In this document: positions 2,388 to 9,574 of the stretch, in pieces
How the letters are laid out: every line of letters starts with the position of its first letter
Numbering within the stretch: position 1 is the first letter of the stretch
DNA from: Deltaproteobacteria bacterium
Lineage (GTDB): Bacteria; UBA10199; JADFYH01
Length of the DNA stretch: 33,846 bases
NCBI GenBank assembly: GCA_015233135.1
Contig: JADFYH010000031.1
Coordinates: forward strand, 1-33,846
Direction of reading: 5' to 3'
Position numbers and translations under genes: made by a program
The notes under the pieces: generated by a model
The model's database searches: none
What the model was told of the DNA's origin: nothing
The model's input: the letters and a program-made list of their open reading frames with translations, nothing else

Positions 2388-3086
2388 ATGAAAACCCTTT
2401 CTTTTGATGCCCACAGTCTTAAAAAAGTTCCCATCCTAAAAGGCCTCCACGATAGCGATTACACGCGCATTTTTTCTTTGGGAAAAATCAAACACTTTCA
2501 AAAAAATATTAGCCTCTTCAATCAAGGCGATGAAGCCGCCGCGGTTCTCATCATCCTGGAAGGAAAAATCAAAATTTCACAAATTGGTGAAGATGGAAAC
2601 CAGGTGCTCTTAAGAGTCTTAGGCCCGGGGCAACTGCTGGCGGGAGTGGCTGTGCTCGAAAATGGGACTTACCCTGCTACTGGCAACACGCTTGAAAAAA
2701 CCACGCTCTTTTGTTTGGACAAAACAGCCTTGCTGCTCTTGATGTCTCAGTACCCCCCAATAGCATTAAGCATAATTCAACTGCTTTTGAAGAGGATTGA
2801 AGAACTACAAAAACGCTTTCGCGAAATTGCAACCGAGAGGGTGGAAATTCGAATCGCAAGAACCCTGCTACACTTTGCCTCTCAGCATGGAATCAAAAAG
2901 CCCGAAGGAATTCTCATCGATTTTCCCCTCACCCGACAAGATCTGGCGGAGTTTACAGGCACCACTCTTTTTTCTGTAAGCCGACTGCTCAAAACCTGGG
3001 AGAGAGAAGAAATTTTGGAAAGCGGTCGAAAAAAAGTCACGCTGCTTCAAGTTGAAAAATTAAAATCAATTTTAAAAGAAGACTGA
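2388..3086 (+). CDS. Crp/Fnr-family transcriptional regulator
   Basis: 232 residues. An N-terminal cyclic-nucleotide-binding-type beta barrel spans about 15-135 (FNQGDEAAAVLIILEGKIKI, then 'LLRVLGPGQLLAG'). A long dimerisation helix spans about 125-165, and a Crp-type winged HTH about 178-225 (LTRQDLAEFTGTTLFSVSRL). There is no N-terminal Cys cluster, so a 4Fe-4S sensor is unlikely; a haem/NO sensor of the DNR/NnrR kind is possible. The recognition helix reads LFSVSR, with Phe where Crp and Fnr carry the base-contacting Glu, so it should read a different half-site. The gene sits 70 bp upstream of the nnrS-like gene, with a palindrome in between, which makes nnrS its likely target. Confidence 0.88.
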   Translation: MKTLSFDAHSLKKVPILKGLHDSDYTRIFSLGKIKHFQKNISLFNQGDEAAAVLIILEGKIKISQIGEDGNQVLLRVLGPGQLLAGVAVLENGTYPATGNTLEKTTLFCLDKTALLLLMSQYPPIALSIIQLLLKRIEELQKRFREIATERVEIRIARTLLHFASQHGIKKPEGILIDFPLTRQDLAEFTGTTLFSVSRLLKTWEREEILESGRKKVTLLQVEKLKSILKED

Positions 3087-3091
3087 GTTTC

Positions 3092-3105
3092 TTGCTTTCG
3101 CGCAA
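3092..3105. promoter_or_regulatory. Candidate Crp/Fnr-type operator (TTGC-N6-GCAA) before nnrS
   Basis: TTGCTTTCGCGCAA is a 14-bp palindrome with four symmetric bases in each arm, the size of an Fnr site. Its centre is about 58 bp before the nnrS start, which allows an activator position with a -10 near 3128-3133 (TACATC, a weak match). Binding by the adjacent regulator is an inference. Confidence 0.4.
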
Positions 3106-3156
3106 AGAACAATCTCTGCAGTTTTGCTACATCTTGCTAAACAACGAGGAGATTCT

Positions 3157-4413
3157 ATGAAACCACAAAACTGCCCCCTACACACCGCCGCCCATCACAT
3201 TTCCGGTTTTTTCATCGAACCTTATCGTCCTTTTTTTGCCCTGGGTGTCATTTATAATGTGGTCGTGATGGGACTGTGGTTCACCTGGCTGCATGGCCTT
3301 GAAATGCAGAGAATTTATCTCCCCTTTCAGATCTCTCCGCTACAAGCTCATTTTCACTGGATGATCTTTGGTTTTTCCAGTTTCTATATCTTCGGTTTTC
3401 TTCTGACGGCCTTTCCAAAATGGGTGGCTGCACCACAAACCAAAGGTCCACATAATATTTTTTTGGCCTTGATGCTTTTTTTATCCCAGGTCTTGATCTT
3501 GCTGGGCAGTCTTTTTTCAGCCTTGCTGCTTAAATTTGCCTTGTTGCTTGAACTTTTTTTAATGCTCAATCTCTTGCGGATACTCCTCAAGTCTTATCTT
3601 TCCTGCACCCAGAAAAAACTTTTTGATCAGAGTTCTATGGTACTCCTTGCCTTGGGCTTTGGCATCCTTGCTCAAATTTTATTTCAGTTCAGCATTTGGA
3701 AAAGTTTTGTGCCTTATTATGGGCTAAGTCTTTACCTGGCTCAATATCCTTACCTGCTCTTCTTGATGATGGGCATTTCTTATCGTATTCTGGCTTTTTT
3801 TACGTCTACGCTTCCGCCCACAACAGAAGTGCAAAGAGGCCCCTTTACTCTACCTCTCGCCTTGGCCTTGATCTTTTTGTTGGGCCTCTTCAAATTTATT
3901 CCTTCCTTAAGCAGCCTCCCTTACGTGCAAGGATCACTGCTTATTATTTTAGGACTGCTGTGGTTAAAAGAGTTGCAGTACTGGAAGTGGAAAAAATCTT
4001 TTTCCAACTTTCTACTTTTCTCTCATTATCTGGCTTTTTTTTGGACGATATTATTCTTGGGGATCCTGGGCGTTCAAGCAATATTCCCTCATTCTTTCTT
4101 TCAAGATCGGAGCCTCTCTCTAGCCCTTCAGCACCTGTTTTTTCTAGGAGGGATTTCCACCTTGCTTTTGGGAATCAGCACCCGCGTGACACGCGGGCAT
4201 GGAGGGCTTGGATTTGCCTTAGGGAAAATAGATTATACCGTCTTTGGCCTGCTCCAAGGGGCGGTGCTGCTTCGAGTGTTCTTCCCCTTCCTTGAAATAA
4301 AATTCTCCCTATTGAAAGGACAGTCTTTTCATTCTGCTTTTCTTTGGTGGCTGGCTTTTTTGTTGTGGGGGATACGTTATCTGCCGGTTTTATCGAGAAA
4401 CCCTGGGAAATGA
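3157..4413 (+). CDS. nnrS: NnrS-family haem-copper membrane protein (NO-stress related)
   Basis: 418 residues with about 12 hydrophobic segments. NnrS signatures are visible: 'FFIEPYRPFFALG' near the start, 'HFHWMIFGFSSFYIFGFLLTAFPKW' (about 60-90), 'GISYRILAFF' in the middle, and 'LGGISTLLLGISTRVTRGHGG' near 345-365. Conserved His in the first and third of these are the likely haem/copper ligands. NnrS proteins are linked to nitric oxide tolerance and are normally controlled by NO-responsive Crp-family regulators, matching the gene just upstream. The ATG at 3157 is chosen because GAGGAG (3146-3151) sits 5 bp before it; the TTG upstream at 3124 has no such site. The stop is only 7 bp from the converging gene at 4421. 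Confidence 0.85.
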   Translation: MKPQNCPLHTAAHHISGFFIEPYRPFFALGVIYNVVVMGLWFTWLHGLEMQRIYLPFQISPLQAHFHWMIFGFSSFYIFGFLLTAFPKWVAAPQTKGPHNIFLALMLFLSQVLILLGSLFSALLLKFALLLELFLMLNLLRILLKSYLSCTQKKLFDQSSMVLLALGFGILAQILFQFSIWKSFVPYYGLSLYLAQYPYLLFLMMGISYRILAFFTSTLPPTTEVQRGPFTLPLALALIFLLGLFKFIPSLSSLPYVQGSLLIILGLLWLKELQYWKWKKSFSNFLLFSHYLAFFWTILFLGILGVQAIFPHSFFQDRSLSLALQHLFFLGGISTLLLGISTRVTRGHGGLGFALGKIDYTVFGLLQGAVLLRVFFPFLEIKFSLLKGQSFHSAFLWWLAFLLWGIRYLPVLSRNPGK

Positions 4414-4420
4414 AGAACAA

Positions 4421-4744
4421 TTAAGAAAGAAGTTCCATTTTGGGTAGAAAGAGAAATTCGGCATCACTCAAGATCTGGGCATGGCAGGCATAAGAAGATT
4501 CTTCTAAAAAAGACTTTAGACACACAAGCTTGGTCTTCTGAAAATTCCATAGATGCTTCTCCTCACAAGACTTTCCTTGATGAGTAAATCGAATCTCGCC
4601 TTTGAGCAAAACGAAAAGCCCACAGGGCTGATGCCCTTCATAGAAAAGCACCTGATCTTTACGGTAAGAGATAGGATGGGCCTTAGGCCCCAGTTCTTCC
4701 CATCGCTTTTCCAAATCCAAAAGAAATTTTTCTTCAGTTTGCAT
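4421..4744 (-). CDS. Lone cyclic-nucleotide-binding (Crp-type) domain protein
   Basis: 107 residues forming just the first part of a Crp-type cNBD: 'ISYRKDQVLFYEGHQPCGLFVLLKGEIRFT', then a shortened second half ending FLFLPKMELLS. There is no dimerisation helix and no HTH, so it cannot bind DNA by itself. The wording of the barrel ('VLFYEGHQ.CGLFVLLKGEI') resembles that of the Fnr-like protein next to it ('VIFYEGNQSLGLYCIFSGRV'), so it may derive from a duplication. It could act as a decoy or partner for the neighbouring regulators, or be a decayed gene. An Fnr-like palindrome lies 45 bp upstream of its start. Confidence 0.65.
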   Translation of the reverse strand: MQTEEKFLLDLEKRWEELGPKAHPISYRKDQVLFYEGHQPCGLFVLLKGEIRFTHQGKSCEEKHLWNFQKTKLVCLKSFLEESSYACHAQILSDAEFLFLPKMELLS

Positions 4745-4788
4745 AAAATATTACTTCGATGCCTAACGCAAAAAAAAACCTGAAGCTA

Positions 4789-4800
4789 TGATGCAGATCA
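4789..4800. promoter_or_regulatory. Candidate Fnr-type site (TGAT-N4-ATCA)
   Basis: TGATGCAGATCA matches the inner part of the Fnr/Crp-family consensus TTGAT-N4-ATCAA on both arms. It lies between the lone cNBD gene (start 4744, minus strand) and the end of the Fnr-like gene at 4809. No good -10 is evident downstream, so activity is uncertain. Confidence 0.42.
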
Positions 4801-4808
4801 TCCAAAAC

Positions 4809-5513
4809 CTAAATATCCATACTTGCGGCATCCAGTAAGGCTTCCATGTCACAGAGCGTAATACTTCGTTCTTGCACTTCAATGATTCCTTCTTTTTTGA
4901 ATTCGGAAAGTAAACGAATGCTCGTTTCCTGAGTTGTTCCTATCATCTCTGCCATCTCTTGACGGGAAAGCTTCAGCACAATCTGCACTCCCTTTTTCAC
5001 GGGCGTCCCATAGGCCTCCTTCAGCATCAAAAGCAGCTCTGCCATTCTTTCCCGGGCTGTTTTATGGGTAATACTGATGGCCAAATTTTCAGCTACACGG
5101 AGCTCCCGCGATATTTTTTTAAACAAACTCAATGCAAGGTCCGGATTTTTACTTAAAACAGAAAAAAAGGCATTTGAATCGATGTAACAAATCTGCGCAT
5201 TTTCCATGGCCTCTGCGCTGGCGTGGTAACATTCCCCCGCAAATAAGGAACGATACCCCAATAGATCACCAGGGCTGGCAATACGCACAATTTGCTGGGC
5301 CCCGTTGGCAAGGGACTTATAAAGCTTCACTCTCCCGGAGAAAATGCAATAAAGCCCTAAGGATTGGTTCCCCTCGTAGAAAATTACCTGTCCCTTCTTG
5401 TAGGTATTACTGATCTTGTAATTCTCGAGTTCCCCCAACGCTAAGTCCTCCAGCTGGCAAAACACCCCCACGGGGCGGGCAGAACAAGTTTTACAACTTG
5501 GAAAACTAGTCAT
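4809..5513 (-). CDS. Fnr-like Crp-family regulator with an N-terminal Cys cluster
   Basis: 234 residues. The N-terminus carries C7-x2-C10-x8-C19, and further Cys lie at 95 and 109. This layout resembles Fnr (three N-terminal Cys plus one central Cys) that holds an oxygen-labile 4Fe-4S cluster, although the last spacing is longer than in E. coli Fnr. The cNBD barrel covers about 25-125 ('KGQVIFYEGNQSLGLYCIFSG', 'IVRIASPGDLLGYRSLF'), a dimer helix about 125-165, and the HTH about 180-215. Its recognition helix reads QETSIRLL, keeping the Glu and Arg that in Fnr contact TTGAT half-sites. It is a good candidate to bind the TGA(T/C)-N4 palindromes found upstream of neighbouring genes. A non-FeS redox role for the Cys residues is the alternative. 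Confidence 0.88.
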   Translation of the reverse strand: MTSFPSCKTCSARPVGVFCQLEDLALGELENYKISNTYKKGQVIFYEGNQSLGLYCIFSGRVKLYKSLANGAQQIVRIASPGDLLGYRSLFAGECYHASAEAMENAQICYIDSNAFFSVLSKNPDLALSLFKKISRELRVAENLAISITHKTARERMAELLLMLKEAYGTPVKKGVQIVLKLSRQEMAEMIGTTQETSIRLLSEFKKEGIIEVQERSITLCDMEALLDAASMDI

Positions 5514-5684
5514 AATGAAAGCCTACTAAATTCTCGCGGTTAGCCCGAAGGAAAGATGAAAAGTCCCCTCCACTCCTACAGAAGGACCCTCTCCCCTCGC
5601 GATAGGAATGGCATAGGGCGTAAGCAGTTTGGGATCAAGATAAAAAATGGGATTATAATCGCCCGTGACGTTTTTAGAGGTGCC

Positions 5685-5852
5685 CTATCCTCTCTTGTGA
5701 TTAAACGTCCTCTGCCTCACACTTCGATCCTCCCAAATATCTTTGGATTGAGAAAAATTGCTGTCGAGCTTTTTTTTCTTCATAGCCAGCTCATTGCGAT
5801 TCGCGCCATACTTATGCTGATGCACTCTTTCTTTGTTCTCTTTTTGATTCAT
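5685..5852 (-). CDS. Small hydrophilic protein downstream of the universal stress gene
   Basis: A 55-residue frame starting at ATG 5852, 14 bp after the stress-protein stop and preceded by a purine-rich AAAGGGGGG (4 bp spacing), a plausible ribosome binding site. The product is rich in Lys, Arg, Asn, Gln and Ser, with no hydrophobic segment and no recognised motif. Position and the binding site favour a real small gene in the stress-protein operon; length and composition also allow a chance frame. The 171 bp after it (5514-5684) show no further gene. Confidence 0.35.
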   Translation of the reverse strand: MNQKENKERVHQHKYGANRNELAMKKKKLDSNFSQSKDIWEDRSVRQRTFNHKRG

Positions 5853-5866
5853 AAAACCCCCCTTTA

Positions 5867-6820
5867 TTAGTCTCCCACTCCCAACTCTTGATAAGAAAGA
5901 TCTTCCTCTTCCATCATTTCTTCTAGCAGCTTCTTGCGGTAAGCAAAGCCTTGCTGGGGGCAAAAACTCAGCACTGAACAGGGGGCATAGCGAACGACCT
6001 GCCCTGCAACACTCCCCATAAAAAGGTAATTCAGACCTGAGCGACCATGCGTAGGGATTAAAATCAGATCGGCCCGTACCTCTTTTGCCAGGTGACAGAT
6101 TTCTGTGACCGCCAACCCCGTTGAAACGTGGGGGGTGATTTTGGGTGAGGAAGGATGCTGATTGATAATCCTTGTCAGGCTCTCCAGGGATTCCTTTTCA
6201 AGAGTGGCAGGATTCATGAGCACCAGACCTTCAACATAAGCAGGCGTTATGATAGGAAACGGAAGCACATAGAGGGCATGGGCTTGTAAAAAAAGTGAAG
6301 AAGAAAGTCTTGTTAAGAAATCGAAAGTTTCCTCCACAGGTTCAGACTCATCAATAGGAAGGAGAACACTTTTGGGAGGCCAGGCGGAGGGAGAACGGAC
6401 CACCCATACAGGAGAAGGAGAATGACGAAGCACTTTTTCCGCCACACTCCCTAACAACAGATGGGACAACCCAGTTCTGCCATGAGTGCCTATTACCACG
6501 AGATCCGGTAAGGTTGATTGGATTTCATTCAGAATAACAGACGTCGCTTTGCCCGGCTTTACCTCTATTTCCAAACTCTTTAACTCTTTCGAGGAATGTG
6601 AAAAAATTTGCCGGACGTCTTGATCAATCTGCTCACGAATCTGCTGTAAAATTTCAGCTTGGTACTTTAAAAAGTCATTTTTGCTAACCGTGGAGGGACG
6701 GGAAAACACCTGCAATACCCGCAGACTCGAATGAAAATGCTGCCCCAACCTCAAGGCCCATTCCAAGGCGATCTTACTCGGTGGAGAAAAGTCGTACAAG
6801 GCAAGGATCTCAGCAAACAT
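5867..6820 (-). CDS. Tandem-domain universal stress protein
   Basis: 317 residues made of two UspA domains, about 1-145 and 150-285. Each ends with the nucleotide-binding signature G-x2-G-x9-G-S: 'GTHGRTGLSHLLLGS' (111-125) and 'PTHGRSGLNYLFMGS' (256-270; the first Gly is Pro). ATP binding is therefore likely in the first domain and somewhat less certain in the second. A charged tail (LLEEMMEEEDLSYQELGVGD) follows. The ATG at 6820 is preferred over one 12 codons upstream because GAGGAGGG lies just before it. An Fnr-like palindrome sits about 90 bp upstream. In other proteobacteria such stress proteins are often induced under low oxygen by Anr/Fnr, which would fit the surrounding regulators. 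Confidence 0.9.
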   Translation of the reverse strand: MFAEILALYDFSPPSKIALEWALRLGQHFHSSLRVLQVFSRPSTVSKNDFLKYQAEILQQIREQIDQDVRQIFSHSSKELKSLEIEVKPGKATSVILNEIQSTLPDLVVIGTHGRTGLSHLLLGSVAEKVLRHSPSPVWVVRSPSAWPPKSVLLPIDESEPVEETFDFLTRLSSSLFLQAHALYVLPFPIITPAYVEGLVLMNPATLEKESLESLTRIINQHPSSPKITPHVSTGLAVTEICHLAKEVRADLILIPTHGRSGLNYLFMGSVAGQVVRYAPCSVLSFCPQQGFAYRKKLLEEMMEEEDLSYQELGVGD

Positions 6821-6908
6821 ACATTCCCTCCTCTTAAAGCACTGATAAAGGCGCACAAGGCCTCACGTACTGCCGCTGGACAGTAAAGAAATTGCTTCAA
6901 AAGAAAAA

Positions 6909-6920
6909 TGACTTAAGTCA
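6909..6920. promoter_or_regulatory. Candidate Fnr-like operator (perfect TGACTTAAGTCA palindrome)
   Basis: A perfect 12-bp palindrome of the form TGAC-N4-GTCA, lying 88 bp before the universal stress protein start. About 31 bp closer to the gene the minus strand reads TTTACT (6883-6888), where a -10 would sit for a class II activator site. It also lies just beyond the 3' end of the receiver-Crp gene, so only the stress gene can be its target. Confidence 0.45.
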
Positions 6921-6953
6921 GTTTTTGGAATGATTAAACGGGTCGTCTCGAAG

Positions 6954-8009
6954 CTATTGGATTTGCTGCAAACCCTCAAAATCTAGCACCACAATTTCTC
7001 TACCATTGACCTCAATCAACTTATCCATCTTCAATTCACTGAGGCATCGAATCACCGTTTCAGCAGCGGTGCCCACCATGCCTGCCAAATCGTCACGGGT
7101 GACCATCACTCGGGCTTTTTTCTTCCCTTGTTCTGCAAAACGCCTTGCTAAAAGCGAGAGGGTTTCGGCCACTCGTTTGCGTACCGTATCGTAAGCAAGG
7201 CTCAGTAATTGTTTTTCCCGTTCAATAATACGGTTGGATAGCATCTTGATAAATTTGCTGGCAATATCCCGATTTTGATAAAGCAATGAAAGAAAAACTT
7301 CCTTTGGAATTTTACACAACTCACAATCTTCCAAAGCAATGGCAGAATCCGAATAAGCCACATTTTCAAGCATCGAGGTATATCCAAAATAATCTCCCTC
7401 TTTATACAAACTTGTCACATATTCTTTGCCATCATCATGAATTTTATAAGTTTTAATTTTTCCGAAGTTTAGCAAGAAAAGATGAGTGGGACTGTCTCCT
7501 TCATGAAAAATCACCTCTTTCCTTTTGTAGTGGAGGACGGGCGTGTTATATGCCAGCAGATCGAGGCCCACCATTCCTTTGGCCTCATCCAAAAACTGAT
7601 GCAAGCCCTCGATGTTTTGCGCATACTCATTTTTTAGCATTTCATTTTTTTTGAGTCGGCACTCAATCGCTGCCAGAAGTTCTGTTTCTTCAAAAGGCTT
7701 GGTAAGATAATCGTCCGCTCCCAGTTCCATCCCCTTTCTTAATTCGCTTTTTTCGGCCTTGGCAGTAAGAAAAATAAAAGGAATCGAAGCGGTTTCTCTA
7801 TCTTTCGAAAGGATATGCAAGACCCCATAACCATCCAACTCGGGCATCATGATATCACACACAATGAGATCGGGGTGAAACAGCTTAACCATTCGCAAAG
7901 CTTTTTTGCCGTCCTCTACGGCAAGAACCTCATACTGAGACAGCTCGAGAATTTCAGTGGTATTTTGTCGCATCACCAAATCATCCTCGACCAGCAGAAT
8001 TTTTTTCAT
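6954..8009 (-). CDS. Response regulator fused to a Crp-type DNA-binding regulator (REC-cNBD-HTH)
   Basis: 351 residues. An N-terminal receiver domain (1-120) has the acidic pair E8/D9/D10, the phospho-acceptor D52 (VCDIMMPE), T82 (FLTAK) and K104 (YLTKPFEE), so all residues needed for phosphorylation are present. A linker is followed by a Crp-type barrel (about 160-270, 'KEVIFHEGDSPTHLFLLNFGKIKTY') and a winged HTH (about 285-345, 'TRDDLAGMVGTAAETVIRCLSELK') that keeps the Glu and Arg of Fnr-type recognition helices. A phosphorelay can thus be wired directly to a Crp-type DNA site. No histidine kinase gene lies nearby. ATG 8009 is chosen for AGGGAGA five bases upstream. Confidence 0.92.
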   Translation of the reverse strand: MKKILLVEDDLVMRQNTTEILELSQYEVLAVEDGKKALRMVKLFHPDLIVCDIMMPELDGYGVLHILSKDRETASIPFIFLTAKAEKSELRKGMELGADDYLTKPFEETELLAAIECRLKKNEMLKNEYAQNIEGLHQFLDEAKGMVGLDLLAYNTPVLHYKRKEVIFHEGDSPTHLFLLNFGKIKTYKIHDDGKEYVTSLYKEGDYFGYTSMLENVAYSDSAIALEDCELCKIPKEVFLSLLYQNRDIASKFIKMLSNRIIEREKQLLSLAYDTVRKRVAETLSLLARRFAEQGKKKARVMVTRDDLAGMVGTAAETVIRCLSELKMDKLIEVNGREIVVLDFEGLQQIQ

Positions 8010-8140
8010 GATTTCTCCCTGAATAAGGCCTGAAGGAAGTAATTGTAGAGCTGCATTCGGGGCTTTTCCATGATCTTTTTCAAAAAACACTGACTTGAAT
8101 CATAATTACCGAATTTATTTGAGCAAAACCGCAGCATTCC

Positions 8141-8152
8141 TGATTAAGGTCA
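8141..8152. promoter_or_regulatory. Candidate Fnr-like operator (TGATTAAGGTCA)
   Basis: TGAT-TAAG-GTCA is an imperfect palindrome of the same type as the one at 6909-6920. It lies 132 bp before the receiver-Crp start, with an AT-rich stretch (8112-8118) at the distance expected for a -10. It could mediate autoregulation. Weak evidence on its own. Confidence 0.32.
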
Positions 8153-8264
8153 CATTTTTTTCTGACACATCTCATGGTTTCAGAATAAATATTCCCTTAT
8201 AAACTTGCTATCTTCACAGCTTGGGCTTCTCGTTTTCAAGGCCGTTCTCTCCCCGCTCCCCTCC

Positions 8265-9204: not shown

Positions 9205-9240
9205 AAGGCGCGGTCTCTAGCCGCAAGCAAAGAAAATAGT

Positions 9241-9336
9241 TTGGTCATCCTGATGCAGATCAGGATCTTCACAGACTTTTCACTCGGATCCAATTGTATC
9301 CGTGGAGATCCCGTTCTTCGACGGGATGACGACCAA
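9241..9336. repeat. 96-bp cloverleaf-like palindromic element
   Basis: Outer stem TTGGTC (9241-9246) with GACCAA (9331-9336) encloses three hairpins. Arm 1 is ATCCTGAT/ATCAGGAT (9247-9254, 9259-9266). Arm 2 is CGGAT/ATCCG (9285-9289, 9298-9302). Arm 3 is ATCCCGT/ACGGGAT (9308-9314, 9321-9327). It lies in the 373-bp gap 9205-9577, just upstream of the CaiB-like gene. It may be a dispersed palindromic repeat or a structured leader RNA; no other copy was noticed in this window. Confidence 0.6.
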
Positions 9337-9370
9337 CGGAAGTTCCATGGGACAAAATGGAAAATGTAAT

Positions 9371-9510
9371 AGATCTCTTTCATAAATCGCTGCACGACCC
9401 AATTGCGGCGTTGCGGTATCCAAAAAATCCTCATTTGCAGTAGCAAACTCCGGTATTTTGGACCCTCCGCGTCTTGCACTTGGACCGTTCGCTGATTTAT
9501 GAAGAGATCT
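9371..9510. repeat. 140-bp foldback (inverted-repeat) element
   Basis: The left end (9371-9390) and the complement of the right end (9491-9510) both read AGATCTCTT, CATAAATC and GC, differing by two single-base indels. The match continues imperfectly inward to a centre TTTGC-AGTA-GCAAA (9435-9448). This is the shape of a MITE or large REP-type element. A smaller hairpin TTCCAT/ATGGAA (9343-9362) joins it to the cloverleaf element. Short frames across it are explained by the repeat and are not called as genes. Confidence 0.65.
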
Positions 9511-9539
9511 AATGAAAAAGGGCCACATTTCTGCAGCCC

Positions 9540-9574
9540 TTATACCTTATACCTTAAACCTTACACCCTAAACC
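9540..9574. repeat. Five tandem degenerate heptamers (consensus TTAWACC)
   Basis: TTATACC, TTATACC, TTAAACC, TTACACC and CTAAACC follow each other without gaps from 9540 to 9574, ending 3 bp before the stop of the SCP2 gene. Looks like a product of slippage. No function is evident. Confidence 0.75.

Follow-up and report, generated by a model that had tools for sequence, protein, structure and literature searches.

The window analysed here is a contig of 33,846 nucleotides (JADFYH010000031.1) from a Deltaproteobacteria bacterium of the GTDB lineage UBA10199 (JADFYH01; assembly GCA_015233135.1; genome of 2.61 Mb, 98% complete), and the subject is its block at positions 2388-8152. An earlier note had seen there four proteins with Crp-type barrels, an NnrS protein and a universal stress protein (Usp) within 6 kb, and had proposed a local oxygen/NO regulon. 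Pfam profile matches, the basis of the domain calls in this text, bear out that gene content at 2388-8009. The block probably serves as the regulatory island for a low-oxygen/stress regulon, in which an Fnr orthologue and a response regulator with a Crp-type output (RR) would share one operator, often present as a tandem with a period of 22 bp. The genes and features of the block are the following:

2388..3086, plus strand: CrpA, a regulator with a Crp-type barrel and an HTH_Crp domain (Pfam, alignment)
3092..3105, unstranded: palindrome TTGCTTTCGCGCAA upstream of NnrS, on present evidence outside the regulon (chance-level count)
3157..4413, plus strand: NnrS membrane protein (PF05940, E=2.8e-57)
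4421..4744, minus strand: single-barrel protein of 107 aa without helix-turn-helix (HTH), companion of Fnr and predicted target (Pfam, conservation in relatives)
4789..4800, unstranded: candidate operator ATGATGCAGATCAT, 50 bp upstream of the HTH-less gene, conserved in 12/12 genomes (comparison with relatives)
4809..5513, minus strand: Fnr orthologue, four Cys kept, recognition helix QETSIR (Pfam, alignment)
5867..6820, minus strand: double Usp, predicted target (PF00582, conserved order RR-[site]-Usp)
6909..6920, unstranded: candidate operator ATGACTTAAGTCAG between RR and Usp, 94 bp upstream of Usp (RR-[site]-Usp order of the relatives)
6954..8009, minus strand: RR, response-regulator receiver, Crp barrel and HTH, recognition helix AETVIR (Pfam, alignment)
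8091..8102, unstranded: candidate operator CTGACTTGAATCAT, intergenic, 87 bp upstream of RR (pattern scan)
8141..8174, unstranded: candidate tandem operator TGATTAAGGTCA-N10-TGACACATCTCA, with one mismatch, upstream of RR (tandem scan)

Crp-type genes and palindromes of the block

As had been anticipated, a Crp-type HTH is present in three of the four barrel proteins, whereas the 107-aa protein lacks it and looks like the product of a target gene, not like a DNA-binding regulator. A profile search of the organism's own genome showed that these four barrels are its only PF00027 matches, and that the above-cutoff matches to PF13545/PF00325 are just three, all of them in the block, so that the entire Crp/Fnr complement found in the organism lies within one block. 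Synteny of the whole block was sought in the relatives and not found, the conserved pairs there being RR-Usp and Fnr/HTH-less only.

The four palindromes pointed out in the earlier note were found at 4789 (TGATGCAGATCA), 6909 (TGACTTAAGTCA), 8141 (TGATTAAGGTCA) and 3092 (TTGCTTTCGCGCAA). Three of them look like real operators; the last one is a TTGC-N6-GCAA motif, distinct from TGAY-N4-RTCA, which is not supported as an operator, its count in the window (1 versus 1.49 expected) being at chance level. The window contains the pattern TGAYNNNNRTCA seven times where 1.73 would be expected, and none of 100 dinucleotide shuffles reached that number. Given the genome-wide count of 195 TGAY-N4-RTCA sites, 0.44 would be expected in the block, which contains 5 (Poisson P ~1e-4), and its 937 intergenic bases hold 4 of them against 0.07 expected (Poisson P ~1e-6), an enrichment between genes over coding sequence. 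The earlier note had overlooked the site at 8091-8102, the one at 8163-8174, which at a distance of exactly 22 bp is the partner of 8141, and a copy at 9251. A TGAT half-site at 6931 stands 22 bp from the operator at 6909. The site at 7007, within the coding sequence of RR and with T/A flanks, is probably a chance match and was rejected.

Operator sequence, tandem spacing and extent of the regulon

The operator predicted for the regulon is [AC]TGAY-N4-RTCA[GT], often paired at 22 bp, and it differs from the classical FNR box. Its most conserved example is the TGAT-N4-ATCA palindrome upstream of the HTH-less barrel gene, present in each of the 12 genomes compared within the class (the one of the window included), with a single copy reading TGAC. 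Its left flank is always A/C and its right flank G/T. In 29 loci of related genomes, which are not independent of each other and were picked because they carry Fnr or RR, irrespective of sites, the flanked pattern had 36 intergenic and 3 coding matches, versus 9 intergenic and 48 coding matches for ten alternative spacer lengths pooled. An independent set, made up of 79 RR loci of named and mostly Bacteroidota genomes, gave 145 intergenic and 21 coding sites, with 3-12 intergenic matches for each of the other spacers. The classical TTGAY-N4-RTCAA was rejected, with 2 intergenic and 5 coding matches in the relatives' loci; elsewhere in the own genome, the 15 classical boxes inspected all fall inside long open frames. 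The core TGAY-N4-RTCA of the earlier note is thus supported as the operator of an Fnr-type regulon by its intergenic enrichment and its conservation in relatives, the two points on which that note had proposed to refute it, whereas the full TTGAT-N4-ATCAA has to be amended, as an A/C stands outside the half-site and the motif is often a 22-bp tandem. In the open-access literature searched, neither this operator nor a receiver-Crp regulator that uses it was found described, which is weak evidence of novelty.

The tandem arrangement was seen in several ways. A scan with a matrix trained on the relatives' sites, in which both members of a pair were counted if both were strong, placed a second site exactly 22 bp away in 30 of 55 sites, while no alternative distance between 10 and 65 bp was seen more than twice. 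A literal, matrix-free pattern (TGAYN4RTCA-N10-TGAYN4RTCA, up to one mismatch) gave 131 copies in 38 of the 46 genomes of the phylum, and its reversed control only 1. The own genome has six perfect copies versus ~0.01 expected, plus two with one mismatch, including 8141-8174. Finally, the paired sites around RR in Bacteroidota and others are mostly 22 bp (n=22) or 23 bp (n=7) apart, with 2 for the next value.

Operator sites are spread through the genome, so that the word local does not hold for the regulon. Contig C19 carries six sites within 12 kb. Sites there precede the kinase of RR (C19:26848), a HisKA_3 sensor kinase (C19:29391) and Hsp20 (C19:30266), or sit between GlgA and a nucleotidyl transferase (C19:32426); a single site lies between MalQ and a glycogen phosphorylase. 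Other contigs have sites 5' of a phosphoribosyltransferase (C41:11930), of a KdpD/Usp-type protein (C6:17099) and of a small open reading frame (ORF) which we take to be a cold-shock protein (C16:7261). In the relatives, such sites, whether tandem or single, stand before COX1, COX2, a molybdopterin oxidoreductase, ApbE, a CBS protein and a hemerythrin, as well as a gene presumed to be MoaA from the start of its sequence.

The genes downstream of 22-23 bp tandems were also examined in ten Bacteroidota loci (L015, L017, L021, L042-L044, L051, L060, L077 and L090). Judging from sequence starts and not from hidden Markov models, they presumably include genes for a CcoNO-type cbb3 oxidase, and other Bacteroidota tandems would lie upstream of a FixI-like ATPase, Usp, PAS kinases and a truncated-haemoglobin-like ORF.

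Two further copies in the window were not counted as parts and are probably not functional: the one at 864 belongs to an ORF rich in repeats, the one at 9251 to a stretch that is partly repeated. The ORF at 157-1653 encodes Cys-rich CGDG...GEQCDDGN repeats, followed by a hydrophobic stretch and an Arg-rich tail, and in our reading it resembles myxobacterial-type anchored surface proteins. The stretch at 9205-9545, upstream of a CoA-transferase gene, has an inverted-repeat look with one operator-like copy at 9251, and part of it recurs in another place of the genome (L187, 63 bases at 89%). The contig end (1-126) is also a repeat, with 126 identical bases at the end of C14 and a partial copy near the end of C2.

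Fnr, RR and the HTH-less companion

The Fnr orthologue matches PF00027, PF13545 and PF00325 above their cutoffs, and has a C-x2-C-x8-C motif in its N-terminal region plus a fourth cysteine in the barrel, in columns kept in 11-12 of the 12 orthologues. In an alignment with E. coli FNR, the fourth cysteine falls on C122, and the N-terminal spacing is x8 instead of x5. These features suggest that Fnr may sense oxygen through an iron-sulphur cluster. RR consists of a PF00072 receiver, with the phospho-acceptor Asp in 89/89 homologues, and an HTH_Crp_2 output domain.

The recognition helix reads QE[TS]xIR in 11 of 12 Fnr orthologues, and in RR the E and R are found in 89/89 homologues and the I in 82/89. 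Set against E209, S212 and R213 of E. coli FNR, Fnr keeps E and R, with Ile replacing S212. This Ile probably goes with the A/C that replaces the outer T of the FNR box, so that the loss of Ser from the recognition helix would be tied to a different outer base in the box. Since Fnr and RR share the E-x-x-I-R helix, they should read the same site, and the crosstalk between Crp-type proteins foreseen by the earlier note is plausible. The operator is present both in Fnr genomes where no RR was found and in an RR genome (G007) without a close Fnr orthologue, from which we infer that both proteins read it. CrpA has the recognition helix LFSVSR, with F at the place of FNR Glu209; given this F and an S at recognition positions, it probably reads another site.

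The order kinase-RR-[operator]-Usp is found in seven relatives of the class and in a Bacteriovoracaceae genome, and supports the proposal of Usp and regulator genes as targets. The window keeps RR-[6909 operator]-Usp, although RR no longer adjoins the kinase that accompanies it in the relatives. An orthologue of that kinase (54% identity, 30% for the next match; reciprocal best hits by a wide margin) is encoded on contig C19; it is probably the cognate histidine kinase of RR and is predicted to transfer a phosphate to it.

The HTH-less gene directly adjoins Fnr, in tandem or divergently, in 9 of 11 relatives; it lies ~3 kb from Fnr in L136 and on a separate contig in G001, and L153 is an additional tandem case. 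All 12 proteins match the barrel family alone and share the invariant residues Y35, H38, G42, G49 and F99, with an invariant His where Fnr has Asn. A truncated pseudogene was rejected as an explanation, the gene being conserved with its operator in 12 genomes, which makes it a predicted core target of the regulon. The HTH-less barrel also lacks the dimerisation helix, and it is thus unlikely to form a simple mixed dimer by way of that helix. A tentative and rather doubtful idea is that this barrel, made from an Fnr-type operator, senses a ligand or redox state and acts on Fnr or RR in feedback, in which case the output at the shared tandem operators would combine oxygen (Fnr), a phosphorelay (kinase and RR) and a third sensor.

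In the mechanism we propose, Fnr would report oxygen through a 4Fe-4S cluster on its four conserved cysteines, RR would report the signal of the histidine kinase now encoded on C19 once phosphorylated by it, and both would bind [AC]TGAY-N4-RTCA[GT]. A distance of 22 bp from centre to centre corresponds to about two helical turns and would place two dimers on one face of the DNA, probably in a cooperative manner. The targets, presumably activated, would be RR, its kinase, Usp, Hsp20, the second sensor kinase, glycogen enzymes and the HTH-less barrel, with cytochrome oxidases, a molybdopterin oxidoreductase and MoaA as further targets in the relatives. As RR and its kinase carry operators of their own, they are likely autoregulated.

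Alternative readings and comparison with known systems

Several points weigh against a regulon shared by Fnr and RR. About 12 of the 36 intergenic sites in the relatives' loci are those that gave the flank rule, and the genes of the relatives were called with a simple custom caller. In the own genome, where coding and intergenic counts were taken from the stretches around the sites, 31 of the 50 single sites seen fall in coding sequence, which makes a lone site a poor predictor. The window shows no conserved operator directly before fnr. Genome G013, of the same class and 96% complete, has five tandem matches (up to one mismatch) and yet no cNMP_binding protein was found in it, so that the gene may be missing or the site may be read by something else. 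The sensing of oxygen by Fnr is suggested by homology only, and the binding, the signals and the direction of regulation are computational predictions.

A first alternative is that the tandem operators are bound by RR alone, as a stress branch, with Fnr on single sites, resulting in separate regulons with little crosstalk. It would agree with the tandems of the own genome, which accompany RR, kinase, Hsp20 and glycogen genes, with the single site of the Fnr-linked gene and with the tandems of the Bacteroidota RR loci. However, perfect tandems occur in four genomes with an Fnr orthologue where no RR was found (G002, G009, G011 and G017), some of them upstream of respiratory genes, and the recognition residues of Fnr and RR are identical, which leaves this alternative rather unlikely.

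Under the second, a local oxygen/NO regulon, CrpA would be an NO sensor that reads TTGC-N6-GCAA and controls NnrS, and the block would regulate mainly itself. The adjacent, co-directional genes for CrpA and NnrS and the different recognition helix of CrpA speak for it, but the NO branch of the earlier note depends on a single palindrome at chance level, the operators are spread genome-wide, and in the relatives NnrS adjoins no CrpA homologue and, in three of them, an Fnr orthologue instead (L153, L160 and L161, from G027, G032 and G014), which hints weakly at NnrS as a member of the Fnr branch and not of the CrpA one. We consider it improbable. That all the palindromes are chance or low-complexity matches is scarcely conceivable: a single site is indeed short and mostly coding in the own genome, and the copies at 864 and 9251 probably do nothing, but conservation before one gene in 12/12 genomes, the exact 4-base spacer, the exact 22-bp period and the phylum-wide 131 copies versus 1 are hard to reconcile with it.

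With the shared regulon as the preferred reading, an uncultured phylum gains a concrete and testable low-oxygen/stress regulon, together with a precise operator of 34 bp for which other genomes can be scanned. A two-component regulator and an Fnr-type sensor are suggested to converge on one site, with a fixed 22-bp geometry common with Bacteroidota.

E. coli FNR and FnrL are 4Fe-4S oxygen sensors that read TTGAT-N4-ATCAA. The Fnr of the window resembles them in its barrel and HTH, in four cysteines at matching places, in Glu209/Arg213, in the TGAT-N4-ATCA core and, in its relatives, in respiratory targets. It differs in the outer A/C instead of T (with G/T on the right flank) and in Ile instead of Ser212, and the system as a whole in its frequent 22-bp tandem operators and its conserved HTH-less companion gene. 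The closest counterparts of RR are receiver-Crp hybrids with an adjacent PAS histidine kinase, mostly from Bacteroidota (L013-L091; 45-58% identity over nearly the full length), none of which was found characterised in the open-access literature searched. They show the same operator and a 22-23 bp tandem, with the kinase directly upstream in most, whereas RR in the window is apart from its kinase and beside Fnr and CrpA. In the FixLJ-FixK system of rhizobia, the LuxR-type FixJ activates a separate FixK. Two-component control of Fnr/FixK-type operators is common to both, as are cbb3-oxidase-like genes in the Bacteroidota loci, but here the receiver is fused to a Crp-type output, with neither a LuxR-type FixJ nor a separate FixK step. 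NnrR and DNR are nitric-oxide regulators of the Crp family, and CrpA is similar in that its gene adjoins nnrS, although for CrpA there is only a chance-level palindrome upstream of nnrS. Finally, an analogy can be drawn with the DosR/DevR dormancy regulon of mycobacteria, which has a role in hypoxia (PMC5069765). The two have in common that stress-type genes, for example Usp and Hsp20, would be controlled through a kinase, while the DNA-binding fold and the operator are different.

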